Positions 35,669 to 52,795 of a stretch of DNA of 64,000 nt are shown here, piece by piece (the stretch's first letter is position 1; each line of letters starts with the position of its first letter). The stretch lies in contig NZ_JADOBQ010000002.1 in the NCBI RefSeq assembly GCF_015644665.1, positions 62,001-126,000 on the forward strand, given 5' to 3'. The position numbers were made by a program, and so were the translations under genes. The notes under the pieces are model-generated. The model did not search any database. It saw only the letters and a list, made by a program, of their open reading frames with translations, and was not told where the DNA came from. Source of the stretch: Roseobacter sp. MH60115 (lineage in GTDB: Bacteria; Pseudomonadota; Alphaproteobacteria; Rhodobacterales; Rhodobacteraceae).

Positions 35669-35681
35669 GGAGGACAACCCT

Positions 35682-36351: not shown

Positions 36352-36404
36352 TGCTAGCTTTCTGCGCATCCTTGGAAATCGAATGTGCTGAAAGGGTGAG
36401 AAAG

Positions 36405-37178: not shown

Positions 37179-37180
37179 TA

Positions 37181-37202
37181 CGGTAATTCTACTGTAGTGC
37201 CG
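37181..37202. promoter_or_regulatory. Candidate lux-box upstream of luxI
   Basis: A 22-bp imperfect inverted repeat starts CGGTAATTC and ends GTGCCG, between the luxR stop and the luxI start. Six of eleven positions per arm match their complement. Position and symmetry fit a LuxR site. Confidence 0.4.
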
Positions 37203-37259
37203 AATGCGTCTCCGCGAACCTACGATGACGGTGTGACTTTCCAAGCGTAGGAGGCCGTC

Positions 37260-37859
37260 GTGATTTTGACAGCTTATGAAGCGGAACGTGAAACTCATGC
37301 CGATATCTTCGAGCAGATGTACCGGTTGCGCGCCCGGCAATTCGGAGAACGTCGTGGATGGCGGGTCGATGTCAGGGATGGCCTCGAGAAGGACAGGTTC
37401 GACGATCTGAACCCGCTTTACGTGTGTGTCCTCTCCGAAAACCGGAAACTCATGGCGTCGCTGAGACTGCTGCCCACAACCGGGCCACATATGTTGTCAG
37501 ATGTTTTCTCCGAGGTGATGGGCACGGCAGGGGTCATACGCCACCCTCTCATTCTGGAGAGCTCGCGTTTCTGCGTTGATACGGAAGCCTCAAGGGAAGT
37601 TGGTCCCGAGGGGATCAATCTCGTCACCCGTGAACTGCTTTTCGGCCTGTTCTCCACCGCGCAGATGGCCGGGATCGAGAACATCATCTCTGTCTATGAC
37701 GTGTTCGTGGAGCGGATATTGCGGCGCGCCGGATGTCGGTTCGAGCGGTTGGGCCCGGTTGTGAAATACGATGATCTCAGAACCGTCGGCGGGCTTTTCG
37801 AGGTCAGCGACCATGTGATCGATGACGTCAGCAGCGCGCGACCGCGTGCGGCTGCGTGA
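37260..37859 (+). CDS. luxI: LuxI-family acyl-homoserine-lactone synthase
   Basis: The 199-residue protein carries the invariant residues of LuxI enzymes: Arg, Phe and Trp in YRLRARQFGERRGW, the acidic pair in EKDRFDD, and ESSRFCVD around residue 100. It makes an acyl-homoserine lactone from S-adenosylmethionine and an acyl carrier. The GTG start is supported by AGGAGG five bases upstream. It is the first gene of the long biosynthetic operon, which links product formation to population density. Confidence 0.95.
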   Translation: MILTAYEAERETHADIFEQMYRLRARQFGERRGWRVDVRDGLEKDRFDDLNPLYVCVLSENRKLMASLRLLPTTGPHMLSDVFSEVMGTAGVIRHPLILESSRFCVDTEASREVGPEGINLVTRELLFGLFSTAQMAGIENIISVYDVFVERILRRAGCRFERLGPVVKYDDLRTVGGLFEVSDHVIDDVSSARPRAAA

Positions 37860-37906
37860 GGACAGCCCCGGGGTTGACGCCCCGCCCCGTTAAAGGGGGC
37901 GCGGCA

Positions 37907-39010
37907 GTGCCCAAACCCGCCATCCCCGACCCCCAATCGAGCAGAGCAGGAGATCTCTCAAACATGCCCCGTAGGCCCGCGCCCAACAAGCTTTGGATCT
38001 GTGTCACGAACCGCTGCAATCTGACCTGTCCCCATTGTCTGCCGGACTCGCGCCAGGCGATGGACAACGAAATGGACCGTGATGAGATCCTGAGCCTCAT
38101 TCACCAAGCACATGCATTGGGTGTGCAGCGGATCACATTCACCGGGGGTGAACCGACCCTTTGCCGTGATCTTCTGGAATACGTGCGCGTCGCATCGAAA
38201 GGAGGGGCCGTGCGCACCTACGTCGAGACCAACGCCATGACGATCCGCGCGCCGCAATTGCTGAAATTGCGCGCCGCAGGACTGTCGATCCTGAACCTCA
38301 GCCTCGATGGGGCGACGGCGTTGACGCATGATGGGTTTCGGGGCGCTCCGGGTGGTTTCGAAAAGGTGCTCGACACCGCGCGCGCCGCAGGTGCGATTGG
38401 TCTCGATGTACGCATTTACTGCACGGTGACCCAGCACGACATCGAAGAAGCGCATCTGATACCGCAGTTGCTCGACGATCTGGGCATCCGGGTGAATGTT
38501 TTGACGTATGCCTATTTCACGGAGATCGGGCGGGGCAGTCGCAATTCGAACCTGTCACTACCGCCCGCCCGGTGGAAGAAGTTCTGCGACGATCTCGAGG
38601 CAAGCCGCGCCCACTGGGAACCCCGGATCGGAAAAGTCCGGTACGAGCCAGCCTTTCTGCGTCCCGACGAGGTAACGCACTACCGGGATAACACCTCGTT
38701 CAACGTGCACTGCATCGCGCGGGAACGCGACTATGTTTTTGTGAACCCCGAAGGAGAGATCTTTGGCTGCTCGGTCGCATCGCCGACCGAGAATTCCCTG
38801 GGCAACCTTCGGTCCCAGTCCCTTGAAAGCATCTGGTACGACGCGCCCGGTTGGGCATTTTTCGAGAAAAGGAAGGGATGTACCGGGTGCCCCGTGCTGG
38901 CCTTTGAAAGCGATGACGGTCGCGATCCGCGGTTGGACAGGGCGGACGGTCTGATCCCGATTTGTCCGATGACCCAGTTTCCCCAGGTCGAAAACTGGGT
39001 CTACAAATGA
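37907..39010 (+). CDS. Radical SAM enzyme with SPASM/twitch-like C-terminus
   Basis: The protein has the radical SAM cluster motif CNLTCPHC (Cys37, 41, 44) and the SAM-binding FTGGEPTLC. The C-terminal region has further Cys residues (GEIFGC, GCTGCP, ICPM) arranged like a SPASM or twitch auxiliary-cluster domain; GNLRSQSLESIWY is typical of SPASM proteins. Substrates of such enzymes are often peptides or carrier-bound amino acids, but no precursor peptide is seen here. GTG 37907 with GGGGG seven bases upstream is the likeliest start; GTG 37856 (overlapping the luxI stop) and ATG 37964 are possible. The stop overlaps the next gene. Confidence 0.9.
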   Translation: MPKPAIPDPQSSRAGDLSNMPRRPAPNKLWICVTNRCNLTCPHCLPDSRQAMDNEMDRDEILSLIHQAHALGVQRITFTGGEPTLCRDLLEYVRVASKGGAVRTYVETNAMTIRAPQLLKLRAAGLSILNLSLDGATALTHDGFRGAPGGFEKVLDTARAAGAIGLDVRIYCTVTQHDIEEAHLIPQLLDDLGIRVNVLTYAYFTEIGRGSRNSNLSLPPARWKKFCDDLEASRAHWEPRIGKVRYEPAFLRPDEVTHYRDNTSFNVHCIARERDYVFVNPEGEIFGCSVASPTENSLGNLRSQSLESIWYDAPGWAFFEKRKGCTGCPVLAFESDDGRDPRLDRADGLIPICPMTQFPQVENWVYK

Positions 39011-39966
39011 GCGCTACCGCCACAAATCCCCGGCACGCGGTCGTTGACGATCCTGGTTTGCATGCGGTGATCCAGGCTGTTTGCAATGGGTTGGCGGTGC
39101 CGCGTGCGTCTGTGGTGCCTTGGTACGATGGCACTCGCGCGCGCAGTTTTGTGGTCGCAGATCAATTCGTGTTGCGTATGGCCTGCCGCGCAGATGCGGC
39201 CACTGCCTATGCCAACGAACGTGCGGCCATGGCCTTGCTGGCGGATATCGCCACCATTCCAAAGCTGATGGCTCATGGTGTGGAGGGGGGCTTCCATTGG
39301 CAGCTGACCACGCTATGCCCCGGCGTGCCGGTCACCTCCGTCTGGCCAAAGCTGTCGCAAGCGGACCGGCGCAGCCTCGCACGATCCGCCGCGCGTCACC
39401 TGTCACGGCTTCACCGGATCGAGATCCCGGCCCACGGCCTCATGGATTGGCGCCTTGGCCCTGTGATCGCGCGTTGCCGAACCCAAGCGCGAGACCGCAC
39501 CCGCCTGACGACCGCAGAGTTTGAGCGGGCAGAGGCATGCATTGCACTGTTGGACACGCGCGACAGGACGGAAGATCGGCTTGTGCACGGGGATTGGCAT
39601 TTCGGGAACCTGCTGTGCGACGGGTCGCGTGTCTCCGGCATCGTCGATCTTGAATGGACCGGCAGGGGAAGCTTTGCCCGGGACCTGTGCATTGGCGACT
39701 ACTTCGAGGCGCAAGCGTCCGGGTCTTGGTCCGTCTTCCTTTCGGCATTCATCCAGGAAAGCAGGTTTGGTGAGGCCGATCTGACAGAGATCGCCAAATG
39801 GACCCTTCTTTGGAAGCTGTATCAGGTGAGCACGCGCGAAAACGCGGCAAGCGCTAACGCCAATAAGCAGGTGCTGATGCGCGCCTGCGAATACATCGAG
39901 CAGGTCGACTTTAAACCCCCGGGAACGGCGGATGATCTTCTGGATTTTCTGGCGGCGGCAACGTGA
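39007..39966 (+). CDS. Aminoglycoside-phosphotransferase-type (APH) kinase
   Basis: The 319-residue kinase has the catalytic Brenner motif HGDWHFGNLL (His194, Asp196) and the metal-binding IVDLEWTGRG that follows, as in APH, choline and homoserine kinase-like proteins. It probably phosphorylates a hydroxyl group of a pathway intermediate or of the finished product; self-protection by phosphorylation is another possibility. ATG 39007 overlaps the previous stop (ATGA) and the GTGA at its end overlaps the next frame. Confidence 0.85.
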   Translation: MSATATNPRHAVVDDPGLHAVIQAVCNGLAVPRASVVPWYDGTRARSFVVADQFVLRMACRADAATAYANERAAMALLADIATIPKLMAHGVEGGFHWQLTTLCPGVPVTSVWPKLSQADRRSLARSAARHLSRLHRIEIPAHGLMDWRLGPVIARCRTQARDRTRLTTAEFERAEACIALLDTRDRTEDRLVHGDWHFGNLLCDGSRVSGIVDLEWTGRGSFARDLCIGDYFEAQASGSWSVFLSAFIQESRFGEADLTEIAKWTLLWKLYQVSTRENAASANANKQVLMRACEYIEQVDFKPPGTADDLLDFLAAAT

Positions 39967-40001
39967 TCTCCCTGCCCCTTCACCACGCAAAGACGAGGAA
40001 T

Positions 40002-41138
40002 ATGGCCATTTCAGTCCCCCTTGATATCCCCTCCACTGACCCGACCGTCGAGGCTCTGGCCTGTGTTCGCGACCATGCCTGTGCAGTTGATGCAGAGGCG
40101 CGGTTCCCGGTCGAGGGGATAGCGGCCTTGCGGGGTGCAGGATGGCTGCAGCCGCCCGAGGGGCAGGAGGATGAGGCGCTCTCGACACTTGTTTCGCTCT
40201 GCCGGGCGGTCGGGGAAGCCTGCAGTTCCACCGGTCTGATCTTTGCGATGCATCATATCATGCTGGCTTGTCTGCAGCGGCATGGCGGCGAGGCTCTGCA
40301 ACAGGTGCCCGAGGCTTTGACCGGCCAGTGGCTGCTGGCGTCCAGTACCACGGAGCAGGCGACCGGCGGAGACATCTCGCGGTCCCTATGTGCGGTTCGT
40401 GACGACGGCAAGGGCAATGGCTTTCTGGAAAAGGACGCCTCTGTGCTGTCCTACGCCGAACAATCTGATCTGATCCTTGTCACCGCACGGCGCGATGCTC
40501 AGGCGGAGGAGAGCGACCAGGTTCTTGTCGCCATTCCGACGCGGGACGTGCGGCTGCGGCGCGTGCGGGACTGGTCCGGCCTGGGGATGCGCGGGACGGA
40601 ATCGCACGGCTACAGGCTCCTGGCGCGCTTCCCCCGGGCGTGTGTAATGGATGTGCCCTATACCGAAATCCTGCGCCAGACGATGCAACCCTACAGCCAC
40701 CTGTGCTGGAGTGCGGTGTGGTACGGGATCGCCCGCCGGGCGGTCTGCAAGGCAACAACTGCCTTACGACGTTCCGGCGGGCTTTCCTCTGCCGGTCCGG
40801 CGCTGGCGGCGATCAACCACAGGATGGATCGCTGGTGGGCCATGCAGACACAGGCGATGGCACTGTTGACCGGGCCTCTCGATGACGGGCTGGTGGCCCG
40901 GACGCGGCGCACGTCGGTGTTCAATGGACTCAAGATCGAGGCATCGGAGACGGCGCGGCAGGTGGTGATGGATTGCCTCGATCTCGCCGGGTTCCCTGCT
41001 TACGGCGACACAGGGTCCTGCGCGCTGGGGCCGGAGATACGCGACATCCTGTCCGCACCGTTGATGGTTTCCAATAGCCGGTTGCGCACGGCCATGGCGG
41101 CATCAGCAGCGCTCAGCATGCGGGAGCGGGCGGTATGA
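40002..41138 (+). CDS. Acyl-CoA-dehydrogenase-like flavoenzyme
   Basis: The 378-residue protein has the acyl-CoA dehydrogenase architecture: helical N-terminal domain (FPVEGIAALRGAGWLQPPEG, STGLIFAMHHIMLACLQRHG), a middle beta domain (SGLGMRGTESHG) and a C-terminal helical bundle. In biosynthetic clusters such flavoenzymes desaturate aminoacyl or acyl groups on carrier proteins. The next two genes encode a carrier-protein ligase and a carrier protein, so a carrier-bound substrate is likely. ATG 40002 follows GAGG; GTG 39963 would overlap the previous stop and is an alternative. Confidence 0.88.
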   Translation: MAISVPLDIPSTDPTVEALACVRDHACAVDAEARFPVEGIAALRGAGWLQPPEGQEDEALSTLVSLCRAVGEACSSTGLIFAMHHIMLACLQRHGGEALQQVPEALTGQWLLASSTTEQATGGDISRSLCAVRDDGKGNGFLEKDASVLSYAEQSDLILVTARRDAQAEESDQVLVAIPTRDVRLRRVRDWSGLGMRGTESHGYRLLARFPRACVMDVPYTEILRQTMQPYSHLCWSAVWYGIARRAVCKATTALRRSGGLSSAGPALAAINHRMDRWWAMQTQAMALLTGPLDDGLVARTRRTSVFNGLKIEASETARQVVMDCLDLAGFPAYGDTGSCALGPEIRDILSAPLMVSNSRLRTAMAASAALSMRERAV

Positions 41139-42007
41139 AGGCCACGGGAGCAACGCTCGCAATGCTCCTGGACCGGGGGGAGCTTCATCCCTCGGGGTCG
41201 CCAGGGATCTATGTGCAGGGCGCGCGGTTCATGCAGCTTGTCGCAGCGATTGACGCGGTCATCATGGAGGCGGAACCGCCCGGTGCGTTCGAAGACTTCG
41301 CCACGCCACCGCAGATGCCGGGGGCCACCGCCACGGCGCATAAGTACGATATGCACTTTCCCGAATTGCTGGCGGGCGTCGCACCGCAGACTGCCTGTGG
41401 CTGTGGGGGCAAAGGTCATGCCGACCCCGGCGAGGCCATGGTGCTTGTTCCGGCCGTTTGCCACCTGCTGTACCCGCTGTTGGGACGTCGCGCGGCAAAG
41501 GGCCGTGGCGTTGTCGGGCTCTATGCCATGAAGGGCTCCGTCTTCAGGGCCGAGCCGTCGCAACAGTCGAAACGCTGGCAGAGCTTCAGCGTCCGCGAAT
41601 GGGTCTGTGTTGGTCACGAGGAAAGGGTCGAGACCTTTGCGGAGGCATGGCGCAGCCGATGGACGGGCCTGTGTGATCGCTTTGGGCTGGATGGTCAGAT
41701 CGACGCGGCCAGCGACCCTTTCACCGGACCGACAGCCCGGATCATGCGCAGCAGGCAGCGCCAGACGGGTGAAAAGCTGGAATTGAACTGCCCGCTCGAC
41801 GGTCTGGATTGCGCCATTTCAAGCATCAACCGGCACGGCCCCCATTTCTCGGACGTCTGGGACCTTCGGGCCCCGGATGGACGTCGCGCCATGTCCGCTT
41901 GTGTTGCTTTCGGCTTGGAGCGCACCGCGCTGGCGATGATCGATCGACACGGGCTGGAGAGCGCTTTGACCCTTGCCGAAAGAGACTTGGAGGGCGCGGC
42001 AAGATGA
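41135..42007 (+). CDS. Class II aminoacyl-tRNA-synthetase-like amino acid:[carrier protein] ligase
   Basis: The 290-residue protein resembles the catalytic core of atypical seryl-tRNA synthetases but lacks a tRNA-binding domain. RWQSFSVREWVCVGHEERVE matches motif 2 and SACVAFGLERTALAMID holds motif 3 (GLER, residues 260-263). Cys-rich CGCGGKG and ELNCPL may bind zinc. Known proteins of this type activate Gly, Ala or similar amino acids and load them on a carrier protein rather than on tRNA. The carrier protein is the next gene (ATGA overlap), which strongly supports this role. The amino acid is unknown. Confidence 0.85.
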   Translation: MKATGATLAMLLDRGELHPSGSPGIYVQGARFMQLVAAIDAVIMEAEPPGAFEDFATPPQMPGATATAHKYDMHFPELLAGVAPQTACGCGGKGHADPGEAMVLVPAVCHLLYPLLGRRAAKGRGVVGLYAMKGSVFRAEPSQQSKRWQSFSVREWVCVGHEERVETFAEAWRSRWTGLCDRFGLDGQIDAASDPFTGPTARIMRSRQRQTGEKLELNCPLDGLDCAISSINRHGPHFSDVWDLRAPDGRRAMSACVAFGLERTALAMIDRHGLESALTLAERDLEGAAR

Positions 42008-42318
42008 ACCATGCGCACCCCGCAGAGCTGTCGTCTGACCACTTGGTCGATACCGCGGTCGCGCGCGTCTGTGCTTCGGTCGGGTTGGCGCCGGTAAAAA
42101 ACGACAGCACATCCCTGACCGATCATGGATTGCCGTCGCTGCAGATGGCGCACCTGGTGCTGACGCTTGAGGAACTGATCGGAGCGGAATTCACAGAAGA
42201 CGAGTTGGCGCTGGCGCATTGGCGCTCTCCGGCTCGGATAAAGGCCATGCTGGCGCAGCGCATGCCACCGGCAGCGCTGTCTGACCCGCATGAAGAAAAC
42301 GACCCCAAAGGATTCTGA
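42004..42318 (+). CDS. Acyl/aminoacyl carrier protein
   Basis: The 104-residue protein has the carrier-protein four-helix pattern. The phosphopantetheine site is GLPSLQMAHLVLTLEELIG, with Ser45 as attachment residue; DSL is replaced by PSL. The acidic helix after it is typical. ATG 42004 overlaps the stop of the ligase gene. It probably carries an aminoacyl group loaded by the previous protein. No phosphopantetheinyl transferase gene is in the window, so the housekeeping enzyme must serve. Confidence 0.9.
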   Translation: MNHAHPAELSSDHLVDTAVARVCASVGLAPVKNDSTSLTDHGLPSLQMAHLVLTLEELIGAEFTEDELALAHWRSPARIKAMLAQRMPPAALSDPHEENDPKGF

Positions 42319-42335
42319 CAAACGGAGGCTCACAG

Positions 42336-43547
42336 ATGATCAAAGTGTTCAACAATCTCAAAGCGCCGGACTTTAAACAGTTCGAGATCGTGGAGGTCAA
42401 AGGCAAAGGCCATCCGGATTCGGTCGTCGATGCGATCGCTGACGAGATATCGCGGCGCTACAGTCAGTATTGCCTCGAGCACTTTGGTCACATCTGCAAT
42501 CACTGGGTCGATAAATGCGTTCTCATCGGGGGCGAGTCGGAGTTCGAATTCGGCCGCAGCCGGATGGTGAACCCGATGCGTCTTCTGGTGATCGGCAAGG
42601 CCACCACCCATGTGGGAGATCACGAAATCCCGATGCAGCGGATTGCCCGTGCGGCGGCTGATGCCGTGTTGTCGGATATCGTGGACATCTATGATCCGCA
42701 GCGGGACCTCGTCGTGGACATCATGACGAATTGCTATCAGGGGGCGGGCCGCAAGGACGCGTGGTATCGCCCCACCGGCGGCGATATTCCATCACAGGTC
42801 AACATGATCGAGGCAAATGACGCGGTGATCTGCTCGGGTCACGCGCCGTTCAGCCTCGTGGAAGACATCACGCGTGACCTGGGCGACCACTTCTACAGCG
42901 AAGCATTCCGCGCGGACCATCCCTTTATCGGCACCGACATCAAGGTGATCTGCCAACGCGTCTCGGACGACATACAGGTCACAGCCTGTATTCCGTTCAA
43001 GGCCAGTCTTTGCCCGGACCGTGCCTTCTACGATCGGGAGTTGGAGAATATTCGTACCCTGATCGCGGACCGTGTTCAGCGCAGGTTGAACGCACAGGGG
43101 GGTGAGCGCGGGATCACCTTTGGGATCGACCTCAACACCCGTGACACTGACGACGTTGTCTACATGAGCCACTACGGGTCCTGTCTCGACACCGGCGACG
43201 TCGGGGCCGTCGGCAGGGGCAATCGAACCTCCGGTCTGATCACGCCCGCGCGCCCGATGTCGATTGAGGCACCGGCGGGCAAGAATCCCCGGTATCACTC
43301 CGGCAAGATCCTCGATCTCGCGGCCCGGTGGATCGCTACCGACGTGCATGACAGCCTCGGGCTGAAATGCGAGGTCACAATCTCCACCCAGACCGGTCGT
43401 CCTCTGAATGACCCGCTTTGCACAATCATTCAGATCGATGGCGCCGCAGACGTCGCGGCGGCCCGTGCCTGTGAAGAGCTGGCGCGCGGTGTGCTGCATA
43501 ATGTGCGCGACATCACCGATGACTTTGTGCGGGGGGCAGTCGCATGA
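42336..43547 (+). CDS. Archaeal-type S-adenosylmethionine synthetase
   Basis: The 403-residue protein fits the archaeal methionine adenosyltransferase family (PF01941 type), not the bacterial MetK family. It has VKGKGHPDSVVDAIADEISR near the N-terminus and THVGDHEIPMQRIARAA, and FGIDLNTRDTDDVVYMSHYG in the centre. It makes S-adenosylmethionine, needed by LuxI and the two radical SAM enzymes of this operon, or may accept a methionine analogue. GGAGG precedes ATG 42336 after an 18-base gap, the only clear junction gap in this part of the operon. Bacteria normally rely on MetK, so a cluster-dedicated copy is notable. Confidence 0.87.
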   Translation: MIKVFNNLKAPDFKQFEIVEVKGKGHPDSVVDAIADEISRRYSQYCLEHFGHICNHWVDKCVLIGGESEFEFGRSRMVNPMRLLVIGKATTHVGDHEIPMQRIARAAADAVLSDIVDIYDPQRDLVVDIMTNCYQGAGRKDAWYRPTGGDIPSQVNMIEANDAVICSGHAPFSLVEDITRDLGDHFYSEAFRADHPFIGTDIKVICQRVSDDIQVTACIPFKASLCPDRAFYDRELENIRTLIADRVQRRLNAQGGERGITFGIDLNTRDTDDVVYMSHYGSCLDTGDVGAVGRGNRTSGLITPARPMSIEAPAGKNPRYHSGKILDLAARWIATDVHDSLGLKCEVTISTQTGRPLNDPLCTIIQIDGAADVAAARACEELARGVLHNVRDITDDFVRGAVA

Positions 43548-44065
43548 CCACCCCGGCGATTTTTGTCTCGGGGCTGCCGGGGGTCGGCAAGACCACGCTC
43601 TGCCGCGCGGTGGCGCGCCGCCTGGGGATCAGGTTTCTCAGGTTCGATGACCTGGTCACCAACGCGCCGCCGCAGCCGTTCGACTTTGCCAAGCTGATAG
43701 AGGCTGCAAAGCCGCTTTTTACCCGCCATTTGACACTGTGCGATTCCTTTCCAAAGGGCGCGGCACAGGCGGAAGTGCTGGACCCTGTGGCGCGACCGGT
43801 GCTGATGCTGTGCGTCGAGGATGATCCTGTGGTTGCGGCAGAACGCGCGCAACGCCGTTCACCGCGCAGGTTCACCCCGGAGCGGATCAGGGAGAAATTT
43901 GCAAAGCGCGCGGAGCAGACAGCAGAGCTGCGCCGCTACTGCACGTCACGCGGTACGCCCATCGCCGAGCTGCGCAATGGGCCGGAGCGCTCGGCCTTTC
44001 TGGAGGCCGGGATTCACATCATCGCCAAAACAGTAAGAACGGAAAATCTGCATGCTACAGAATAA
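43544..44065 (+). CDS. P-loop (adenylate-kinase/shikimate-kinase-like) small kinase
   Basis: The 173-residue protein has Walker A GLPGVGKTTLCRAVARRL at residues 9-26 and a following RFDDLV typical of small metabolite kinases. The substrate is unknown. ATG 43544 overlaps the preceding stop, and the end overlaps the inositol-phosphate-synthase-like gene by 14 bases. It could phosphorylate a cyclitol or nucleoside intermediate of the cluster. Confidence 0.8.
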   Translation: MTTPAIFVSGLPGVGKTTLCRAVARRLGIRFLRFDDLVTNAPPQPFDFAKLIEAAKPLFTRHLTLCDSFPKGAAQAEVLDPVARPVLMLCVEDDPVVAAERAQRRSPRRFTPERIREKFAKRAEQTAELRRYCTSRGTPIAELRNGPERSAFLEAGIHIIAKTVRTENLHATE

Positions 44066-45101
44066 CGCTATCCGGGTCGCCGTTGTCGGGATGGGCAACT
44101 GCGGTTCCTCGCTGACGCAACTCATCCACGGTGCGCTGAGCACCTCTGCCAACGACCGGTACGGCGGGGTGTTCTGGGCCAACGGGCGTCCGCATTCAAA
44201 CGAGGATTTTCGTATCGTCGCGGCCTTTGACGTTGATCGTGAGAAGGTCGGGCAGGATCTGGGGGACGCGGTCGAGGCGTCAACGAATTGCACGCCCGTC
44301 GTCTGGCGTGTTCCGCATACGGGGGTGACCGTGCAGAAAGGGCCGCGTCTTGACGGGATTGATGGCCCGCTGGCCGAAAGCGTGATCGAGGCAGACGTGC
44401 CGGACGCGGATGTCCACCAGGTGTTGGCCGATACCTCCGCGGACATCGTCGTGAACATGCTGCCCACCGGCGCCAGGGAGGCTACGGAGTTTTACGCGGA
44501 CGCCGCGCTGCAGGTCGGGTGTGGCTTCGTGAACTGCATTCCGATCCCGCTGGCAACCAATGCCGGTTGGGCGGCACGGTTTCAGGAAGCTGGCGTTCCG
44601 CTCTTTGGTGACGATGTCAAAAGCCAGATGGGCACCACGACCGTACATCAGACGCTGGTCGATCTGATCCAGCGCAAGGGCGGCCAGATCACGCGCACCT
44701 ACCAGATGAACATTGGCGGCAATGCCGATTTCCGAAACATGACCGATGCGGCGCGCAGGGCCTACAAAAACGTCACCAAGACCTCGGCGGTGCAGAGCCA
44801 TGTCGAGGGCCTGGACATCCCGGACATCGGGCCGAACGGATTTGTCGAACCGCTGGGGGACAACAAGCGGGCGCATGTCATGATTGGCGCAGAGCTGGCG
44901 TTGGGCATGCAGGTGGAGATCAATCTGAACCTGACGGTCACGGACAGCCCCAACGCGGCAGGGGTTATTCTGCCGGCGGTGCTGGAGTGTGCCCGGGCGC
45001 GGCGACGCGGTGATGCCGGCGTGTTGCCGGAGGTATCGGATAACTTCTTCAAGATGCCGGTGGCGCCGGTACAAAAGCCTCACCCGCTCCATGCCGAATA
45101 G
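44052..45101 (+). CDS. myo-Inositol-1-phosphate-synthase-like protein
   Basis: The 349-residue protein has an NAD-binding fold (VAVVGMGNCGSSLTQLIHGA), the MIPS-specific lysine-rich catalytic region GDDVKSQMGTTTVHQTLVDL, and GGNADFRNMTDAARRAYKN. It matches the short bacterial/archaeal type of myo-inositol-phosphate synthase. It converts a sugar phosphate such as glucose 6-phosphate into a cyclitol phosphate. Its presence in the operon suggests the product contains a cyclitol or a related unit. The next gene begins inside its end (11 bases). Confidence 0.88.
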   Translation: MLQNNAIRVAVVGMGNCGSSLTQLIHGALSTSANDRYGGVFWANGRPHSNEDFRIVAAFDVDREKVGQDLGDAVEASTNCTPVVWRVPHTGVTVQKGPRLDGIDGPLAESVIEADVPDADVHQVLADTSADIVVNMLPTGAREATEFYADAALQVGCGFVNCIPIPLATNAGWAARFQEAGVPLFGDDVKSQMGTTTVHQTLVDLIQRKGGQITRTYQMNIGGNADFRNMTDAARRAYKNVTKTSAVQSHVEGLDIPDIGPNGFVEPLGDNKRAHVMIGAELALGMQVEINLNLTVTDSPNAAGVILPAVLECARARRRGDAGVLPEVSDNFFKMPVAPVQKPHPLHAE

Positions 45102-45891
45102 CCCGGACGCCATTCCCGTGCCCCCGTGGCTCTGCGATCTGGTCCGTCGCCGGTTCCGGGGCGTGGCTGCTGGGCACAGACTGTCGGCAGGCGGCCCGTT
45201 CCTGGTGGTCGAGGGGATCGACGGGGCGGGCAAGACGACCTTGGTCGATAACCTGCTTGCAAAACAGTCGTCCGTGGATGAGCCCACCCCGATCCTGATC
45301 CGTCTTGGGCAACGCGAGGCGATCCCGGAGGCGATCAGGCCTGTCTATCAGGCACATATCCTGACCGTGGTTGCGGCTGCTAAAGGGTTCCCCGAAGCCT
45401 GCGCGCATCTGCAGCGGATCGCCGAAGTGGATGCCCTGCTCTACAAGTTCAGGCTGGATGCGGCGCGCAGCCAATCACCCGATATGCCAATGATCTCCGA
45501 CAGCTGGGCGCACAAGCGGTTGTGCAAGTTCCTGGCACTGGCCATGGCGTCCGGGCAGGCGGATGTGCCGGGCCTCGCCTCGGGGATCATCGACGCCTAC
45601 GCGCCGGTGACCGGAACGCCAAGCGGCGTGCTGGTCGATGTGCCGCCAGAGACCGCGCTTGAACGAAAGGGTGGCAGGTTTTCCCCATGGGAAACGGTCG
45701 CCCCTCCCGGTTTGGCGCACCTGGCCCCCGCAGACCGCTTCCTGCAGCTTGCGCGGGCCACGGCCACGCTGTTGTCGGTGATGGCGGAAAGCATGGGATG
45801 GGCCCGCATCAACACCGCTCCGAACCGGGTCGCGGATGACACCGGTCACCTCACCACACTGCAGCGGGAGATGAGCGCATGTCATTGCTGA
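45091..45891 (+). CDS. Thymidylate-kinase-like P-loop kinase
   Basis: The 266-residue protein has FLVVEGIDGAGKTTLVDNLL (P-loop, residues about 30-48) and a thymidylate-kinase-like fold, with SDSWAHKRLCKFLALAMA and a C-terminal extension longer than in housekeeping Tmk (about 210 residues). It may phosphorylate a nucleotide or sugar-phosphate intermediate. It overlaps both neighbours (11 and 13 bases). Confidence 0.8.
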   Translation: MPNSPDAIPVPPWLCDLVRRRFRGVAAGHRLSAGGPFLVVEGIDGAGKTTLVDNLLAKQSSVDEPTPILIRLGQREAIPEAIRPVYQAHILTVVAAAKGFPEACAHLQRIAEVDALLYKFRLDAARSQSPDMPMISDSWAHKRLCKFLALAMASGQADVPGLASGIIDAYAPVTGTPSGVLVDVPPETALERKGGRFSPWETVAPPGLAHLAPADRFLQLARATATLLSVMAESMGWARINTAPNRVADDTGHLTTLQREMSACHC

Positions 45892-46901
45892 TCACAGGCG
45901 CGTCCGGGGGCATCGGCGGCTATATTCTTGCACGGTGTCGCGCGACGGGGTGGCGGGTCCACGCGGTTGATATCATGGTTGGACAAGGGATTGATGCGCT
46001 TGACGTTTCCGACCGCGCCGCCTTTGCCGACTACATCGCCGACCACCGGATCAATCGGGTCATCCACTGCGCCGGTCGAATGGATGTGGCAGGCGTCTGC
46101 GACCCGCTGGAGCTTGTGTCCTCGAACGTGCTGGGATTGACCAATCTCTGTTCCATCCTGAAAGACAACCCCACCGCGCAGGTGATTTTCATGAGCAGCC
46201 GCGGCGTCTACCCGTGGCTGCACGCTGACAAGGTTCCCCCAGCTTTGACGGAGGATCACCCCACGCAGGTGGATGTCGAGCGATCCGTCTACGACATGAC
46301 CAAACTTAGCATCGAGATGATCGCCGAGCGCTATGCGATCCAATACGGTTTGACGGTGACCGGTCTGAGGCTTGCATCGACATTTGGCCTCGGGAAAACC
46401 GCGGAAAAACACGGGCATCAGACAATCCTTGTCGACTTGCTGCACGCCGCCCGCGCTGGAGAATCGCGGCGTGTTCCCGGCGCCGACCAATGCACCGATT
46501 TCCTCTACTATGGTGACATCTGGCAGGCGTGTCTGCGGGTCCTTGCGGCGCCCCGCAGGGATGTGCCGATGCGCATGAACGTCAGTGGCGGGGTGCGGCC
46601 CCTTCGCGAGTATGTCAGTGCACTCCCCAGGCACTTCCCGCAGGCCAACGTTACCGCGGGTGACGGATTGGACTATCTTGGCACCGGCGGGTTCGGCTAT
46701 GTCAATCTCGATCCGGTTCTGGCGCGGCAAACGGTCGGGTATGAGGCAGCTTACACCCCCGAGGACGCCTTTGCCGAGATGGATCGATTGTTGCGCGGTG
46801 CGCCACACCCCTTTGTCCACGATTTTGCGGATCTCGTCGCATCGGCTCGGCTCGAAACTGTAGACCGCGCGCGCCAGAGCAGGTCTGCCGCAACATGCTG
46901 A
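45879..46901 (+). CDS. NAD-dependent epimerase/dehydratase (extended SDR)
   Basis: The 340-residue protein has the Rossmann motif ITGASGGIGGYIL and the catalytic pair YDMTK (Tyr138, Lys142). VFMSSRGVYPW-like strand order and FGLGKTAEKHGHQ also fit nucleotide-sugar epimerases and dehydratases. With the kinases, the cyclitol synthase-like protein and the nucleotidyltransferase it forms a sugar or cyclitol tailoring set. The substrate is unknown. Confidence 0.9.
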   Translation: MSLLITGASGGIGGYILARCRATGWRVHAVDIMVGQGIDALDVSDRAAFADYIADHRINRVIHCAGRMDVAGVCDPLELVSSNVLGLTNLCSILKDNPTAQVIFMSSRGVYPWLHADKVPPALTEDHPTQVDVERSVYDMTKLSIEMIAERYAIQYGLTVTGLRLASTFGLGKTAEKHGHQTILVDLLHAARAGESRRVPGADQCTDFLYYGDIWQACLRVLAAPRRDVPMRMNVSGGVRPLREYVSALPRHFPQANVTAGDGLDYLGTGGFGYVNLDPVLARQTVGYEAAYTPEDAFAEMDRLLRGAPHPFVHDFADLVASARLETVDRARQSRSAATC

Positions 46902-48766
46902 TCGGACGCATATACGATATGGCGGAGCGGGCCTTTGATCCGTTCCAGCTTTTGCCGGAACCCAACCCGCTCATTCCTCCGACCACGTCCCGTCGCGTGA
47001 TCTTCAAGATACTGGCAAAGGTGCGCTGGCCGTTGGCCGGGCTGGCGCTGACGGCGGCGTTGATCACCCTGATCGATACGCTGATCCTGTGGCACTTGGG
47101 CGGGTTGGTCGATCTTCTTGCCAACGCCGAGGGGGCGGGGCTGCAGGGGTTTTACATCTTCGCTGCGCTCGTTGTGGCGAAACCGGTCGTGGGGTTTGTC
47201 TATCTCGTGGTGAAGAACCAGAGCTTCAACCCGACCCTGGGCACCGTGGCGCGGCGGGTCTTTCACCGTCACGTGAACGTTCAGGATCCTGCGTTCTTTC
47301 GGGATGCGGCCCCGGGACGTGTTGCCGCGAAGGTCAGCCAGACCGGCAGCGCCTTCCGGCAGGGGATGCGCATTGCGGCAGATCACATCTGGAGCGGTGC
47401 CGTCAGCCTGGTGCTCACCATCGGCCTTTTGATCACGATGGATCTCAGGCTGGCGATTCTGGTGCTGGTTTGGCTGGTGTGCTACGTGTTTCTGCTCAAG
47501 ACGTGGATACCGCGCAATCAGACCGCTGCGGATCAAAGCGCCGAGGCGCTCTCTGAGCTGAACGGCACTCTGGTGGACGTCTACGGCAACTTCGCTCTGG
47601 CGCGGCTCTTTGCGTGGCGCAGGGCGGACCCGGTCGAAGACGACCTGCGCGAGGTACTGCAGGTGATCCGCCGACAGACACGCATTTCGACCTCGATGGT
47701 TGCCTCTGTCTGGTCGCTGAATGCGGGGCTGTTGTTGTCGGTCGCCGGGCTGTCGGTCTGGCTGTGGTCCCGGGGCATGGTCAGCGTCGGCGCCGTGGCC
47801 GGGGCGGTTGCGATCCTGACGCGGCTCCAAGCGATCTCGCTTGATATCATGTTCAGTCTCAATGCGCTGTCCGATGCTTTGGGTACGCTCAACAACTCGA
47901 CCCGCACCATCGCGCGCAGGCCTGCGATGACCGACGAGACAGATCTGCAGGCCGTACCCGATGAGATTGAGACCCTGACCTTCCGCGATGTCAGCGCCAC
48001 CCATGCCGGGGCGGGCAGGGTCCTGCATGGCATCAATCTGACCTGCACACGTGGCGAGACGCTCTTTCTTCTGGGGCCGTCCGGTCACGGAAAATCGACG
48101 ATGCTTGCGCTTGTCGCGCGGTTTCTCAAACAGGAGTCCGGTGAAGTGGCCCTGAACGGCGTACCCGTCGGGAAGATGCCGCAGGACGATCTGCGCGCAC
48201 GGTTGGCCGTGGCCCGGCAAGAGCCGCAATTCTTCAACATCCCCATTCGGGACAACCTCATGCTCGCCCGTGACGGCCTCACGGAGGAAGACCTGTGGCA
48301 TGCCTTGGAGGCTGTGGAGATGCGCGCCTGCATTGCCTCTTTGATGGATGGTTCCTCCCGCCGTGGGCTTTCGGCCTCTCTGGGTGGTGGTGCAGCAACG
48401 CTGTCGCAGGGGCAGCTGCAGCGTCTGGCGTTGGCGCGCATCCTGTTGAGCGATGCGCCGGTTGTTCTGCTGGACGAGCCCACGTCTGCACTGGATCCCG
48501 AAACAGAAGCGCGCATCTGGCCTGCCATTCTCGCGCATCTGGCTTCGCGGGTTGCCATCGTCGTGACCCACCGGTTCGGTCTGCTGCCACCCGACGCCCG
48601 GATTGCGATGATCGAACACGGGCGTGTGGTTCTGGATACGCGTCTGGATGCCGCGGCGGGGGACGCTGCGGAGAGGTTGCGCGCCTTCCTTTCCACGGAA
48701 CCCGATACGACAGGCAAGGCCGCACCCGTTGATTTGGAGGAGAGGAGACCTGCAAGATGGAATTAA
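46895..48766 (+). CDS. ABC exporter (fused membrane and ATPase domains)
   Basis: The 623-residue half-exporter has six membrane segments (about 40-340) and a complete nucleotide-binding domain: Walker A GPSGHGKSTML, signature LSQGQLQRLALARIL, Walker B VVLLDEPTSALD. All ATPase motifs are intact, so it can act as a homodimer. In a biosynthetic operon it probably exports the product, or a lipid-linked precursor. ATG 46895 overlaps the previous stop, and the next gene starts ten bases before its stop. Confidence 0.93.
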   Translation: MLIGRIYDMAERAFDPFQLLPEPNPLIPPTTSRRVIFKILAKVRWPLAGLALTAALITLIDTLILWHLGGLVDLLANAEGAGLQGFYIFAALVVAKPVVGFVYLVVKNQSFNPTLGTVARRVFHRHVNVQDPAFFRDAAPGRVAAKVSQTGSAFRQGMRIAADHIWSGAVSLVLTIGLLITMDLRLAILVLVWLVCYVFLLKTWIPRNQTAADQSAEALSELNGTLVDVYGNFALARLFAWRRADPVEDDLREVLQVIRRQTRISTSMVASVWSLNAGLLLSVAGLSVWLWSRGMVSVGAVAGAVAILTRLQAISLDIMFSLNALSDALGTLNNSTRTIARRPAMTDETDLQAVPDEIETLTFRDVSATHAGAGRVLHGINLTCTRGETLFLLGPSGHGKSTMLALVARFLKQESGEVALNGVPVGKMPQDDLRARLAVARQEPQFFNIPIRDNLMLARDGLTEEDLWHALEAVEMRACIASLMDGSSRRGLSASLGGGAATLSQGQLQRLALARILLSDAPVVLLDEPTSALDPETEARIWPAILAHLASRVAIVVTHRFGLLPPDARIAMIEHGRVVLDTRLDAAAGDAAERLRAFLSTEPDTTGKAAPVDLEERRPARWN

Positions 48767-49869
48767 CTCCAGAGCAGGCCTTTATGCTGGCCTCCGCCCG
48801 TGCCAGGGCTGTCGGAGCAGACTGGCCCGAGGTGCCCGAGGCGCTCGATCATATGGCGCTTCTGTTGCTGGCGCAGCGCCACAGAATGGCGACCTTCGTT
48901 GCGACGAGCCTGCTGTCACAGGACATACCACGCCCGGTACGCGAGCGGCGCATTGACAAATTCTTCGTAGACGCCCGGATGCTGGGCGCGGTGCGCAATG
49001 CAAAAAAGCGCGCGGTTGCGCTCGCACTGCAAGCGGCGTTCTTGGATGCCGGTATCCCCTCAATTCTCCGCAAGGGGTGCCATTTGGACACCGCGCTCTA
49101 TGGCGGTACCGGCCTGCGGGAGTTCAATGACATCGATGTCTTCATCCCGCCCGATGCACGCCGCGCTGCACTGCGGGTCGCACAGGCGCAAGGCTTCGCC
49201 GCAGGATGGTTCGATGCGGTGACCGGCCGGTTTCAACCCACATCACGCAGGGAGAAAATCTACTACGACATGACGCCGGATCATCTGCCGCCGATGCAGT
49301 TGGTGCGGGCGGAGGATCCGGTTTTACCTGCGATAAAGCTTGATCTGTGTTTCGACCTGGCCTGGGCACAGCACTCGCAGAGAGATCAGTTCGAGCCGAT
49401 CCTTCTAGACGCGCTGGCGGTGGTCGAGGGCCAGTCTGAACCGGTGGGGCAGAGCGATCTCGCCTTCCACTTGCTGGACGTCTCCATGCACATTTATCGC
49501 GAAGCGCGGCATCAGCAGACCTTGGGTGTCAACGATCTGGCCGGAGTTCGCTTGCCAAAGTTCCTTGATGTTTCTGTCCTGTGCCATGCGCTGACCGGCG
49601 CGCAGCGCGCCCGTTTTCGGACGTGGTGCAAGAGGTCTCCGGCCATCGCAGCGGCGGCTTCATGGGTGCTGCACCACACGGATACGGTTATGGGGTCAAG
49701 CCATCTCAACAGCTTGGGGCTGCGTGCCGACCCGTTTCACCTGCAACAATGGGTCACGCAGACCGCCGCGATCCGAACCTGGCGCGGCACGATGATCGAC
49801 AGGTTATTCGCCGCCGATCCAAAGAGCCTGTTTGCCCCCGACCTCTCGGCGCATGCGTCGGGGCAGTGA
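48757..49869 (+). CDS. Nucleotidyltransferase-family protein (NTP_transf_5-like)
   Basis: The 370-residue protein contains ILRKGCHLDTALYGGTGLRE followed by FNDIDVFI, the GxxL-YxxxxxREFxDID pattern of the uncharacterised nucleotidyltransferase family PF14907. Members occur in lasso peptide, sugar and polysaccharide clusters; the reaction is not established. The Asp pair in DID is the expected metal site. AGGAG and a 10-base overlap with the exporter gene support coupled translation. Confidence 0.78.
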   Translation: MELTPEQAFMLASARARAVGADWPEVPEALDHMALLLLAQRHRMATFVATSLLSQDIPRPVRERRIDKFFVDARMLGAVRNAKKRAVALALQAAFLDAGIPSILRKGCHLDTALYGGTGLREFNDIDVFIPPDARRAALRVAQAQGFAAGWFDAVTGRFQPTSRREKIYYDMTPDHLPPMQLVRAEDPVLPAIKLDLCFDLAWAQHSQRDQFEPILLDALAVVEGQSEPVGQSDLAFHLLDVSMHIYREARHQQTLGVNDLAGVRLPKFLDVSVLCHALTGAQRARFRTWCKRSPAIAAAASWVLHHTDTVMGSSHLNSLGLRADPFHLQQWVTQTAAIRTWRGTMIDRLFAADPKSLFAPDLSAHASGQ

Positions 49870-49885
49870 GAGGAGGCCGGTGCGG

Positions 49886-51142
49886 ATGGATTGGCCAGTG
49901 ACACGCATTCAGAAACACCTTCTGCACCGATTGCGCAGCGGTCTGTCACAGCCGCGCAGCAACACGCTCTACGTCATTCTGCAGGCAGATGCGCGGTTTG
50001 ATCTCGCCGCACTTGAGGCAGCGGTGCTGTACCTCGCGACCCGTCATGCGGCTTTCCGGGTAACGTTCACCCGGCACGACCCGCCCAGGCAGCATGTCGG
50101 TCCGATCCCCAGCCCGCTTCCGCTGAGCAGGCTCGCGCCAGATCCGGATTGGCGGTCGGCAGCCCAAACCTTCGTGCGCGCGCCATTTGATCCGGACGGC
50201 GCACCGCTTTGGCGGGCAGGGGTGATGCCGGTCGAAGACGGAACGCTTGTCGTCGTGGCCTGGCACTATGTGCTGGCCGACACCGGTAGCCGAGGGGCCG
50301 TCCAGCGGAGCCTGTGCACCTGGCTGGCCGGACAGGCGGAGGAGAGCACGGATGCGGCATTTCTGAAGTATTCCCAGTCCCTTGAGGACGCGCGTTCCTC
50401 CAAAAATGGGGATTTGAAACGCCGATGGGAAAGCATGATGGCAGGCGCGACACCGGTGTTTGACCCCGTCGCCGCTTCTGCGGCCTCCGCGTATCACGAA
50501 AGCCGTGCGTGCCTGTCCGAGGCCGAAAGCGCGGCACTCCGTGCACGATCGCACCGCGAGGGCGCCAGCCTGCCCCTGATTGCCCTTGCCGCTTTGACGC
50601 ATGTCCTGGCGCCGCGCCTTGATCGGGATGATTTTCTGATCCGGACGCCGTATTCCGCACGCGGTGACTTGGCGATGCCGGACGCCGTTGGCCATTTTGG
50701 CGACACGCTCGCATACCGCGTGCCGCTGGGCCATGATTTTGCCAAAACGCTTGCGCAGGCGCGACTGGCATTTTTGCGCAGCCTGCGCATTCGGCAAGGT
50801 TTCGTGTCGTGGGACAACGACCCTGCATCGCCACCGACAACGCCGGTCATGTTGGTTGTGACACCGCCACCCGACCGACCGCAGCCAATGCCGGAGGGTG
50901 TGAAACGGCTTTATCTGGACGAGCCTAAGGGCGTCACCGAGGCTGGCCGTTGCTTTGTCGTCAAGCTGCGCTGGGGCCGCTCCGGTCTGAGGACACATGT
51001 CTATCACCGCCCCGACCTGTTGCCGTCCCAGCCGGACCTTGCCCAGGATCTGTTGAAGACTCTTGCGCAATGGGGCGGCACGCCACCAACGGATCGCCAG
51101 CCGTCATCGCACCCCAGAAAACAGGAGGTCATGAACCCGTGA
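49886..51142 (+). CDS. Free-standing NRPS condensation-domain-like acyltransferase with altered active site
   Basis: The 418-residue protein has the two-lobed CoA/peptidyl acyltransferase fold of NRPS condensation domains, with VTRIQKHLLHRLRSGLSQPR at the start. The catalytic motif HHxxxDG is altered to HYVLADT: His127 and Asp132 are kept but the catalytic second His is Tyr128. FLIRTPYSARGD and VGHFGDTLAYRV fit the later condensation-domain motifs. It may join the carrier-bound aminoacyl group to an amine or hydroxyl, or be a pseudo-enzyme. ATG 49886 with AGGAGG nine bases upstream was chosen. Confidence 0.82.
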   Translation: MDWPVTRIQKHLLHRLRSGLSQPRSNTLYVILQADARFDLAALEAAVLYLATRHAAFRVTFTRHDPPRQHVGPIPSPLPLSRLAPDPDWRSAAQTFVRAPFDPDGAPLWRAGVMPVEDGTLVVVAWHYVLADTGSRGAVQRSLCTWLAGQAEESTDAAFLKYSQSLEDARSSKNGDLKRRWESMMAGATPVFDPVAASAASAYHESRACLSEAESAALRARSHREGASLPLIALAALTHVLAPRLDRDDFLIRTPYSARGDLAMPDAVGHFGDTLAYRVPLGHDFAKTLAQARLAFLRSLRIRQGFVSWDNDPASPPTTPVMLVVTPPPDRPQPMPEGVKRLYLDEPKGVTEAGRCFVVKLRWGRSGLRTHVYHRPDLLPSQPDLAQDLLKTLAQWGGTPPTDRQPSSHPRKQEVMNP

Positions 51143-52425
51143 ACATCGAGATGATTATTCCCGCAGAATTGAGCCGCAGACTTTTTCGTCAGGTCCCGAT
51201 GGGGTTGCTCTATGCCGCGACACGGCTGCGCGAGCAGGGACACGAGGTCGTCATCAATGACCTGCGCATCAGGCGTCTTGAAGCGCCTTTCGGGCCGGCC
51301 GCCGCAGATCTGCACATTGTTGCAACCTCCGAATACGACACCGCGCAGTGCTTTCCGGAGGACATCGGATTTGTGCGCGACGCCGTGGCCGACATCCGGT
51401 GCCAGTCGGAGGCACCCGTGGCGATTGTCGGCTCCCACCCCACTGTGAACGGCCAGGCCACCTGCGATTTTACCGGTGCGGATCATGCCCTGCGGGGCGA
51501 GCATGAGGTTGTCATCCCCGACTTCGTTCAGGCATGGCCGGAGGTGCCGCAAGTATTCCCCAACGATGAGCCACGCTATGCCGACCGCGAGGAAATCGCC
51601 GACCTGACCGCACCGCGGTTCGATTTCGTCGAGATGCAGCACTACTACAACGAAGGCGTCTTTGCCGATCAAACCGCGCGTCAGGTCCAGGGCGGCCTTG
51701 TGCTCGCCAATCGAGGCTGTCCCTATGCCTGCAGCTTTTGCCATTTGTTCTTTGGCACCAAGCTCAGGAAACGATCTATTAACCACGTGCTTGACGAGAT
51801 CGAAATTCAGATCATCCGCTTTGGCACGCGCAACTTCTTCTTTCTCGACTATACGTTCACCATCGACGAGCGCTGGGTGATGGCGCTCTGCGACCGCATC
51901 CGGGAACGGGATTTGCGGTTCGAATGGGTGTGCCAAACCAGGACCGACCGGATCTCGCGCGAGATGCTGGTCGCCATGCGCGCGGCGGGGTGCGTGGCGA
52001 TGTGGTTCGGGATCGAAACCCCCGATGCAGCGCTGCGCGACGGTCTCCGCAAGCCGCTGGTGGATGACGAGGTGACGAAATCCATACTGCTTGCGCGGGA
52101 CTGCGGGATCATCCCACTGGCGTTTTTGATGGTCGGGTTTCGCAATGAATCCGAGAACAGTCTGCGGGCGCTGAACGACTGGATTTCCCGGACAGGTGTC
52201 TACTACGGACTGGCGCCGCTTTCCGTGCGCCCGGGCACGCCGCTCTTCGACGAAGTCTACGGCGCGGATTATATTGAACGGCATGGGTGGAATTTCGACG
52301 ATCCTTACGCCGGTCGGTTGGGGATCAGCGCGCTGGAGATGAGCGAACTGGATTGGTTTTTTGACCACCATCGGCAGAACCCTCTGCGGCTCAGCAATGC
52401 AGTCCAGCTTGCGCGGATGAATTAA
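51139..52425 (+). CDS. B12-binding-type radical SAM enzyme
   Basis: The 428-residue protein has an N-terminal B12-binding-like domain (about 1-150: PMGLLYAATRLREQGHEVVI, SHPTVNGQATCDF). The radical SAM core carries CPYACSFC (Cys194, 198, 201), with FLDYTFTIDE and AMWFGIETPD after it. The His that ligates cobalamin in classical members is not obvious. B12 radical SAM enzymes methylate unactivated carbons, contract rings or catalyse oxidations. The GTG start overlaps the previous stop and follows AGGAGG. It is the last gene of the operon. Confidence 0.9.
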   Translation: MNIEMIIPAELSRRLFRQVPMGLLYAATRLREQGHEVVINDLRIRRLEAPFGPAAADLHIVATSEYDTAQCFPEDIGFVRDAVADIRCQSEAPVAIVGSHPTVNGQATCDFTGADHALRGEHEVVIPDFVQAWPEVPQVFPNDEPRYADREEIADLTAPRFDFVEMQHYYNEGVFADQTARQVQGGLVLANRGCPYACSFCHLFFGTKLRKRSINHVLDEIEIQIIRFGTRNFFFLDYTFTIDERWVMALCDRIRERDLRFEWVCQTRTDRISREMLVAMRAAGCVAMWFGIETPDAALRDGLRKPLVDDEVTKSILLARDCGIIPLAFLMVGFRNESENSLRALNDWISRTGVYYGLAPLSVRPGTPLFDEVYGADYIERHGWNFDDPYAGRLGISALEMSELDWFFDHHRQNPLRLSNAVQLARMN

Positions 52426-52795
52426 CGCCCGCTCGCGTCCGCAAACGCGCAGGCGAGATCGCATAAGCGTGACATCCAATTGCGATAAATCCGATATATA
52501 AGCGTCGGCAGGCGGGTCCTGCCGATGACAATGCCATTGAGGTCACGCAAACCCTTCTGCGCACGCGCGTCGGGATCGGTCAAACTCGTCCTTGACAGGC
52601 CAGAGTCATTACTATCAAGTTGTACATACAAATTCCTGATGGAGGAAGTTGGGTCACGCGCTTTGGAGGGAGCCTGTGGCGGATGGCGGGAGGCACCGCT
52701 CGCCTCAGCATCTGAAAACCATCCAGGACCTTTTGTCTAAAATACACCGGGAACGGCAGATCAGGAAAATGCCGAATGGGTGAGTGGGAGAAAGA
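52426..52795. other. Intergenic region after the biosynthetic operon with a stem-loop
   Basis: No gene is visible. An 8-bp hairpin TCGGCAGG (52505-52512)/CCTGCCGA (52518-52525) lacks a T-run, so it is not a classical terminator. The right half must contain the promoter of the ABC importer operon; no clear consensus was found. Confidence 0.45.

Follow-up and report, generated by a model that had tools for sequence, protein, structure and literature searches.

The 64,000-nucleotide stretch of the Roseobacter sp. MH60115 genome analysed here (the window; contig NZ_JADOBQ010000002.1, positions 62,001 to 126,000) carries an acquired luxR-luxI operon. With a probability that I put at roughly one half, its enzymes build for export a conjugate of a carrier-bound amino-acid unit and a phosphorylated cyclitol, and one of them, which resembles methionine adenosyltransferase (MAT, the S-adenosylmethionine (SAM) synthetase), would act on a non-standard substrate. 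The proposal draws on the gene content of the inserted block, on changes in the methionine site that run through a whole clade of cluster-borne MATs, and on the recurrence of this clade beside myo-inositol-phosphate-synthase-like (MIPS-like) genes in three phyla. A SAM synthetase is ordinarily credited with a single reaction; a clade of such enzymes that is found in gene clusters, is altered at the methionine site and goes together with cyclitol synthesis and kinases is a lead to new chemistry.

A fifteen-gene operon on an acquired island

The operon comprises 15 consecutive genes, all on the + strand, from luxI at 37260 to the end of the B12-type radical SAM gene at 52425. Twelve of its 14 junctions are overlaps of 4-14 bases and the remaining two are gaps of 16-17 bases (in order: -4, -4, -4, -4, -4, +17, -4, -14, -11, -13, -7, -10, +16 and -4 bases), with preferred starts at ATG 39007 (APH), ATG 45091 (P-loop 2), ATG 49886 (condensation) and GTG 51139 (B12-type radical SAM); an alternative, earlier TTG at 49832 would give the condensation gene a 38-base overlap. 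A scan for intrinsic terminators between 36000 and 53000 returned 15 sites, against 13.8 (standard deviation 3.9) in shuffled sequence. The luxR gene (36351-37178) lies 81 bases upstream of luxI on the same strand, within the inserted block. An earlier, sequence-only reading of this DNA had taken the fifteen genes from luxI onward as one unit linked to quorum sensing, and both points are borne out by the overlapping junctions, the single insertion described below, and the physical presence of luxR and luxI inside it. All the gene families it named are present, and two of them were refined, as the condensation homologue carries an HYVLAD motif and the methionine site of the MAT is changed. The features are as follows.

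36136-52456: acquired island; its flanks lie 0.4-0.6 kb apart in two congeners (36135 to 52457 in G405, to 52582 in G403)
36351-37178, + strand: LuxR-type regulator (Autoind_bind and GerE, Pfam 100.5 and 64.8 bits)
37260-37859, + strand: LuxI-type acyl-homoserine-lactone (AHL) synthase, differing from the common LuxI of the genus
37856-39010, + strand: radical SAM/SPASM enzyme (CNLTCPHC)
39007-39966, + strand: APH-type small-molecule kinase, 319 residues (HGDWHFGN)
39963-41138, + strand: acyl-CoA-dehydrogenase-like flavoenzyme, related to those paired with amino acid:[carrier protein] ligases
41135-42007, + strand: amino acid:[carrier protein] ligase (class-II SerRS-like)
42004-42318, + strand: carrier protein (GLPSL, likely the phosphopantetheine serine; PP-binding 19.7 bits, just below the cut-off of 20.8)
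42336-43547, + strand: MAT-like enzyme of the Trp-type clade (Trp57, Asn55, Lys88, Thr353)
43544-44065, + strand: P-loop kinase 1, with weak kinship to the P-loop family of other MIPS and MAT loci
44052-45101, + strand: MIPS-like enzyme of canonical type (DDVKSQ)
45091-45891, + strand: P-loop kinase 2, weakly thymidylate-kinase-like
45879-46901, + strand: NAD-dependent epimerase/dehydratase (extended short-chain dehydrogenase/reductase, SDR)
46895-48766, + strand: ABC exporter half-transporter
48757-49869, + strand: NTP_transf_5 nucleotidyltransferase
49886-51142, + strand: stand-alone condensation-domain homologue (HYVLAD replaces HHxxxDG)
51139-52425, + strand: radical SAM enzyme, probably of the B12-binding type (CPYACSFC; B12-binding domain 22.6 bits, below the cut-off of 32.1)

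In congeners G403 and G405, window positions 21208-36135 (92% identical in both) adjoin the right flank, which starts at window position 52582 in G403 (92% identical) and at 52457 in G405 (88%), and some 16.3 kb of the window is replaced by ~0.56 kb and ~0.43 kb of other sequence, respectively. A further congener (G409) has the right flank alone in common within the stretch compared, and the first gene to the right of the island, encoding an uptake ABC binding protein, was found in 3 of 18 congeners at 88-94% identity, with a 55-base match in a fourth. Judged by these flanks, the block from luxR to 52425 is a foreign island that was acquired horizontally in a single insertion. Wider screens used the window MAT as their only query and matched 1 of 19 genomes in the genus (its own), 2 of 394 in the family (the other being an ordinary MAT), 8 of 385 in the class and 2 of 398 in the phylum, its own genome included in each. 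Looking for the same locus in other Rhodobacteraceae, as the sequence-only reading had suggested, turned up no second copy of the island when the MAT was the query (it matched 0 of 18 congeners), and the block is absent between its flanks in G403 and G405.

The island LuxI matches Autoind_synth with 143 bits over residues 12-179 of 199. All 19 genomes of the genus, including its own, contain a luxI, none of which other than the island gene is >40% identical to it. Given this distance from the other luxI genes of the genus and the absence of the block between its flanks in two congeners, luxR and luxI most likely arrived together with the operon genes. The second luxI of the same genome (G000:C15:436265-436765) is 37% identical to that of the island. 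Among plasmid records, no relatives of the window NTP_transf_5 protein were found, and relatives of the two radical SAM proteins (98 and 476 records) were all <60% identical; the sole plasmid radical SAM neighbourhood read (L140) was a different cluster.

A MAT clade whose methionine site is altered

The MAT-like enzyme is homologous over its whole length to archaeal-type SAM synthetases (PF01941, 280 bits). For the T. kodakarensis enzyme, PMC3853416 names His33 as the catalytic acid and describes Tyr271 as stacking on the adenine, Asp201 and Asp283 as holding the ribose, with Asp283 also contacting the methionine amino group, and His62, Asn64 and Asn161 as holding the methionine carboxylate. 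These residues were placed on the window enzyme by alignment and motif. At the places of His62, Asn64 and Asn161 it has Asn (55), Trp (57) and Asn, and the carboxylate-holding set is therefore not intact.

The pairing of such a MAT with a MIPS-like gene was first seen in Parageobacillus, in a tblastn search of plasmids, and then in Paraburkholderia and an alphaproteobacterium. A subsequent scan of genome contigs, with four MIPS-linked MATs as its basis, gave 286 relatives, the best 80 loci of which were used. The resulting set counts 101 MATs, after exclusion of matches aligning over ≤250 residues and of loci L001, L010 and L031. A MIPS-like gene lies within 10 kb of 23 of the 101, in three phyla, and these 23 were picked by neighbour alone and not by residue. 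All 23 have Trp at the place of Asn64 and Lys at position 88 (window numbering), where Arg is found in 69 of the 78 others. The position of M. jannaschii Ile351, which together with Leu147 I take to line the S-substituent pocket, is Lys in 22 of the 23 and Thr353 in the window; two M. jannaschii-type PDB chains differ at the Ile351 and Leu147 places in the aligned stretch. None of the 23 has lost the catalytic His, either ribose Asp, the adenine-stacking Tyr, Asn161 or any of the four Arg/Lys residues checked. The loop covering the active site differs in the MIPS-linked MATs and contains conserved Arg residues, and an insertion makes residue-to-residue placement there unsafe; the idea that the adenine-site Asp144 was lost was dropped, as the alignment at this point is unsure.

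This pattern suggests a working ATP half-site and a partner substrate other than methionine in the usual pose. What the sequence-only reading called an 'archaeal-type SAM synthetase' is unlikely to be just that: the homology and the catalytic His stand, but the methionine site is changed, and the genome has an ordinary bacterial MetK besides. In terms of known enzymes, it resembles the archaeal-type MATs of T. kodakarensis (4l4q) and M. jannaschii (7p82) in length-wide homology, catalytic His, ribose contacts and adenine Tyr, while it and its clade differ from them by Trp for Asn64, Lys for Arg at position 88, Thr or Lys for the pocket Ile, an altered loop and cyclitol-related neighbours.

Trp at window position 57, which defines the 'Trp-type' MATs and consequently tells nothing new about them, occurs in 31 of the 101. 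A MIPS-like neighbour was found for 23 of these 31 versus 0 of the other 70 (Fisher p 2.5e-16, with loci that are not independent), and the remaining eight had no MIPS match within 10 kb. The 31 form one clade with a support of 100/98 in a tree of 57 MATs, in which the window is drawn as the first branch; one member of the clade is annotated as 'methionine adenosyltransferase'. A second set of archaeal-type MATs on plasmids of Streptomyces (L005, L006, L029) and Candidatus Megaera (L024) belongs to neither the ordinary nor the Trp-type clade, and its neighbours are sugar-phosphate-isomerase and Gfo/Idh oxidoreductase genes and, in some, a P-loop kinase and NUDIX gene.

The window MAT could instead be an ordinary accessory SAM synthetase that adds to the SAM available to LuxI and both radical SAM enzymes of the same operon, the rest being an amino-acid and cyclitol pathway, and the whole-length homology together with the retained catalytic His, Arg/Lys, ribose Asp and adenine-stacking Tyr residues would fit such a role. 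Against this, Asn64 is replaced by Trp and the pocket Ile by Lys or Thr in every one of the 23 MIPS-linked MATs, tblastn at 1e-4 gave no homologue of the window LuxI or radical SAM proteins in L003, L004, L021 and L032-L062, where the enzymes of this clade accompany cyclitol synthases and kinases, and the genome has a normal MetK. I consider an accessory SAM synthetase somewhat unlikely for these reasons.

Kinases, cyclitol synthases and the amino-acid branch

Presence of partner families was counted by six-frame profiles, since open reading frame calls are unreliable in GC-rich Streptomyces; the profiles were trained partly on the same loci. A family of ~340 residues resembling nucleoside diphosphate kinases (NDK-like) was present in 28 of 30 Trp-type loci, about eight of the 28 being members used to train the profile, versus 0 of 70 others (examples are L036:11155-12210, L050:11202-12233 and L046:16355-17365). 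The members scanned had no significant Pfam match, yet 16 of the 19 PDB chains listed for the family profile were nucleoside diphosphate kinases (best E 8e-5), the best 50 fold matches of a model of one member (mean pLDDT 88) were all nucleoside diphosphate kinases (best E 6.8e-4), and a His of the active-site region of these kinases is invariant across the family. Other recurrent families were SDR (27 of 30 Trp-type loci versus 3 of the other 70), PHP (21 versus 0), APH (20 versus 2), P-loop (17 versus 0) and HprK-like proteins (16 versus 2), and a CYTH family occurred in two Trp-type loci. The window has the MIPS-like enzyme and Trp-type MAT of this module, and the third member, the NDK-like gene, was not found in it. 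Its P-loop kinase 1 is related to the recurrent P-loop family with a profile-comparison probability of 95% over 66 columns, and P-loop kinase 2 with 13%.

Clusters that combine a MIPS-like enzyme and a Trp-type MAT, as the window does, were found in Bacillus, Oceanobacillus, Tissierellales, Hominifimenecus, Paenibacillus, Streptomyces and Photorhabdus, and depending on the locus they also share APH, ligase, carrier protein, NTP_transf_5 and ABC genes with it; most differ from it in having an NDK-like gene, a PHP phosphatase and SDR families not found in the window. Among the Bacillota, the amino acid:carrier protein ligase occurs in L034, L036, L037 and L057 and carrier proteins in L037, L053 and L057, while NTP_transf_5 was found in L034, L036, L037, L053, L057 and L060 and a flavoenzyme of the window kind in L060; NTP_transf_5 is also in L044. 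The combination of aminoacyl carrier and cyclitol/MAT genes in the window thus has parallels in Bacillota, which upholds the aminoacyl and cyclitol logic with an exporter that the sequence-only reading had put forward. The window LuxI and radical SAM proteins had no homologue in L003, L004, L021 and L032-L062 (tblastn, 1e-4), and luxRI and the two radical SAM enzymes would be local features of the window operon. In L037, of Tissierellales, the cluster of MIPS, MAT and ligase ends in a pair of related genes (18466-21145), of which Pfam assigns the first to the TldD/PmbA-type proteases.

The window MIPS-like enzyme is homologous over its whole length to the actinobacterial MIPS 1gr0 (241.8 bits) and shares with it DDVKSQ and three additional lysines; K190, K239, K243 and K272, the active-site lysines with a catalytic role, are all in place. 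Among the 23 MAT-linked synthases, the DDxKSQ site is R/H (DDxRSH) in 17, which were drawn from L003 and L032-L060, K/H in one and K/Q in five. The five-membered-cyclitol-phosphate synthase 6k96, presumably Ari2 of aristeromycin, has DDLASH, with A and H at the site; the window lacks both this and the DDxRSH of the 17, and a carbocyclic, 6k96-type pathway was rejected for the window on account of its canonical DDVKSQ. A synthase tree put the R/H types on the 6k96 side of a weakly supported split (85/87). The mixture of site types implies that the clusters may make different rings.

These kinases and synthases could also be read as building an unusual cyclitol or nucleoside triphosphate, which the MAT-like enzyme would use instead of ATP to give a SAM-like sulfonium or another conjugate. 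The NDK-like gene of most Trp-type loci, the P-loop and APH kinases and the two CYTH members would suit such a route, as would the displacement of triphosphate by SAM synthetase described in PMC3853416 and the departure of 17 of the 23 linked synthases (R/H) from the canonical K/Q, with A/H in 6k96. However, the adenosine contacts are kept while some methionine contacts are changed, which is the opposite of the expectation, the window has a canonical MIPS and no NDK-like gene that could be found, and the R/H synthase of L050 matches 1gr0 better than 6k96 (292 versus 231 bits). An unusual triphosphate in place of ATP is therefore an unlikely explanation.

On the amino-acid side, the ligase (290 residues) has a SerRS-like core and an adjoining carrier protein, and it is homologous to Bradyrhizobium bll0957 (E 7e-36 to 4h2w; 189 bits to PRK07080, cut-off 357); no close relatives were found in genome contigs (24 pattern stretches). 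The nearest known counterparts are the Bradyrhizobium ligase (bll0957, 3mey; variant 4h2w) and the trio of ligase, flavoenzyme and carrier of Rhizobium and others, three families that are adjacent in the window too. The trio recurs in loci of Rhizobium, Phyllobacterium, Mycetohabitans and Azospirillum, which makes oxidation of an aminoacyl thioester a likely chemistry. In the Rhizobium-type loci, DUF1839 and a glycoside hydrolase follow the trio, whereas the window trio stands within a cyclitol/MAT operon. This occurrence of the trio without a cyclitol cassette would be expected if the block were two or more unrelated functions that are merely adjacent, namely quorum sensing, the Rhizobium-type trio and the cyclitol cassette. 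I regard such a chance assembly as very improbable, given the 12 overlapping junctions, the entry of the block as a single insertion, and the Bacillota clusters that likewise combine the ligase or a carrier protein with the MIPS/MAT module.

Proposed pathway, regulation and neighbouring genes

In the pathway that I favour, whose substrates and order of steps I infer from enzyme families and gene neighbourhoods, the operon would probably be expressed at high cell density and yield a hybrid small molecule. The ligase would load the carrier protein with a small amino acid, which the flavoenzyme would then oxidise, perhaps helped by the SPASM radical SAM enzyme. The inositol-phosphate synthase would make a cyclitol phosphate that the epimerase may tailor and the APH and two P-loop kinases may phosphorylate. 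The MAT-like enzyme would then join an adenosyl group, or a kinase-built triphosphate analogue, to a non-methionine nucleophile that is probably cyclitol-derived, after which the condensation homologue, the NTP_transf_5 protein and the B12-type radical SAM enzyme might finish the product for export by the ABC protein.

Extended to the clade, the Trp-type MATs may constitute a new class of ATP-dependent transferases that place 5'-deoxyadenosyl, or a kinase-built analogue, onto a cyclitol-derived, non-methionine nucleophile in a natural-product family of at least three phyla, with the window as its quorum-sensing-controlled, amino-acid-conjugating version; I advance this tentatively, at odds a little short of even.

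Several findings weigh against the favoured pathway. The methionine contacts are not all gone from the 23 MIPS-linked MATs, as Asn161 and Asp283 persist in every one and His62 in 22, and methionine or an analogue may consequently still bind. The window enzyme has Thr at the pocket site, unlike the Lys of the other 22, the placement of the flexible-loop residues Asp144/Leu145 is uncertain owing to the insertion, and the window MAT is a long branch with ≤38% identity to the other rows of the 57-MAT tree. The NDK-like gene was found neither in the window nor in L037 and L057. With regard to sampling, a scan built on four MIPS-linked MATs, with HHW in one of its two patterns, over-represents the Trp-type MATs, the Streptomyces loci include several near-copies, the stretches that hold many of the other 70 MATs are shorter, and by six-frame profile one of the 70 non-Trp loci has a MIPS-like gene somewhere in the locus. 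The window condensation homologue (HYVLADT, not HHxxxDG) lacks the canonical second His of the nonribosomal peptide synthetase motif and may be atypical or inactive, which also qualifies the earlier claim of a condensation-like enzyme to that of a homologue. Lastly, no inverted repeat that could serve as a lux box was found in 37150-37300 (seed 6, arms ≥7). With this search empty, co-transcription and LuxR control are read from gene spacing alone, and AHL would be the candidate signal for the operon.

The earlier statement that no described pathway has this gene set agrees with the open-access papers that the literature searches listed, none of which, by title and abstract, dealt with a cluster of MAT and MIPS or cyclitol genes. 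The luxR homolog-linked biosynthetic gene clusters of Proteobacteria (PMC5872303) are regulator-linked operons like that of the window, and the terms Rhodobacter, Roseobacter, inositol, aminoacyl and radical SAM are all absent from the main text of that paper. The window operon is an acquired representative, linked to quorum sensing, of a scattered class of clusters that seems to be undescribed and has the altered SAM-synthetase-like enzyme as its marker. This orphan biosynthetic family, in Bacillus, Streptomyces, Photorhabdus and others, is easy to find by its marker substitutions.

A role in anti-phage defence was also considered and is not supported, as PADLOC matches were low or lay in a shared domain (10 of 16 proteins scanned). 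The viperin models matched 150 residues of the first radical SAM protein, in the domain that both share, with 61 bits. The B12-type radical SAM protein (51139-52425) matched PDC-M51A with 29.5 bits and P-loop kinase 2 (45091-45891) matched PDC-M51B with 17.5 bits, and the rest were weaker; by their names these two are parts of one candidate defence system, and both scores are low.

Directly to the left of the island (34172-36131) are XdhC, MobA-like and CoxG genes, an arrangement that I take to be that of molybdenum hydroxylase maturation clusters. To its right (52784-56828) is an uptake ABC system, with the binding protein recognised by family search and two permeases and an ATPase by translation of the open reading frames.

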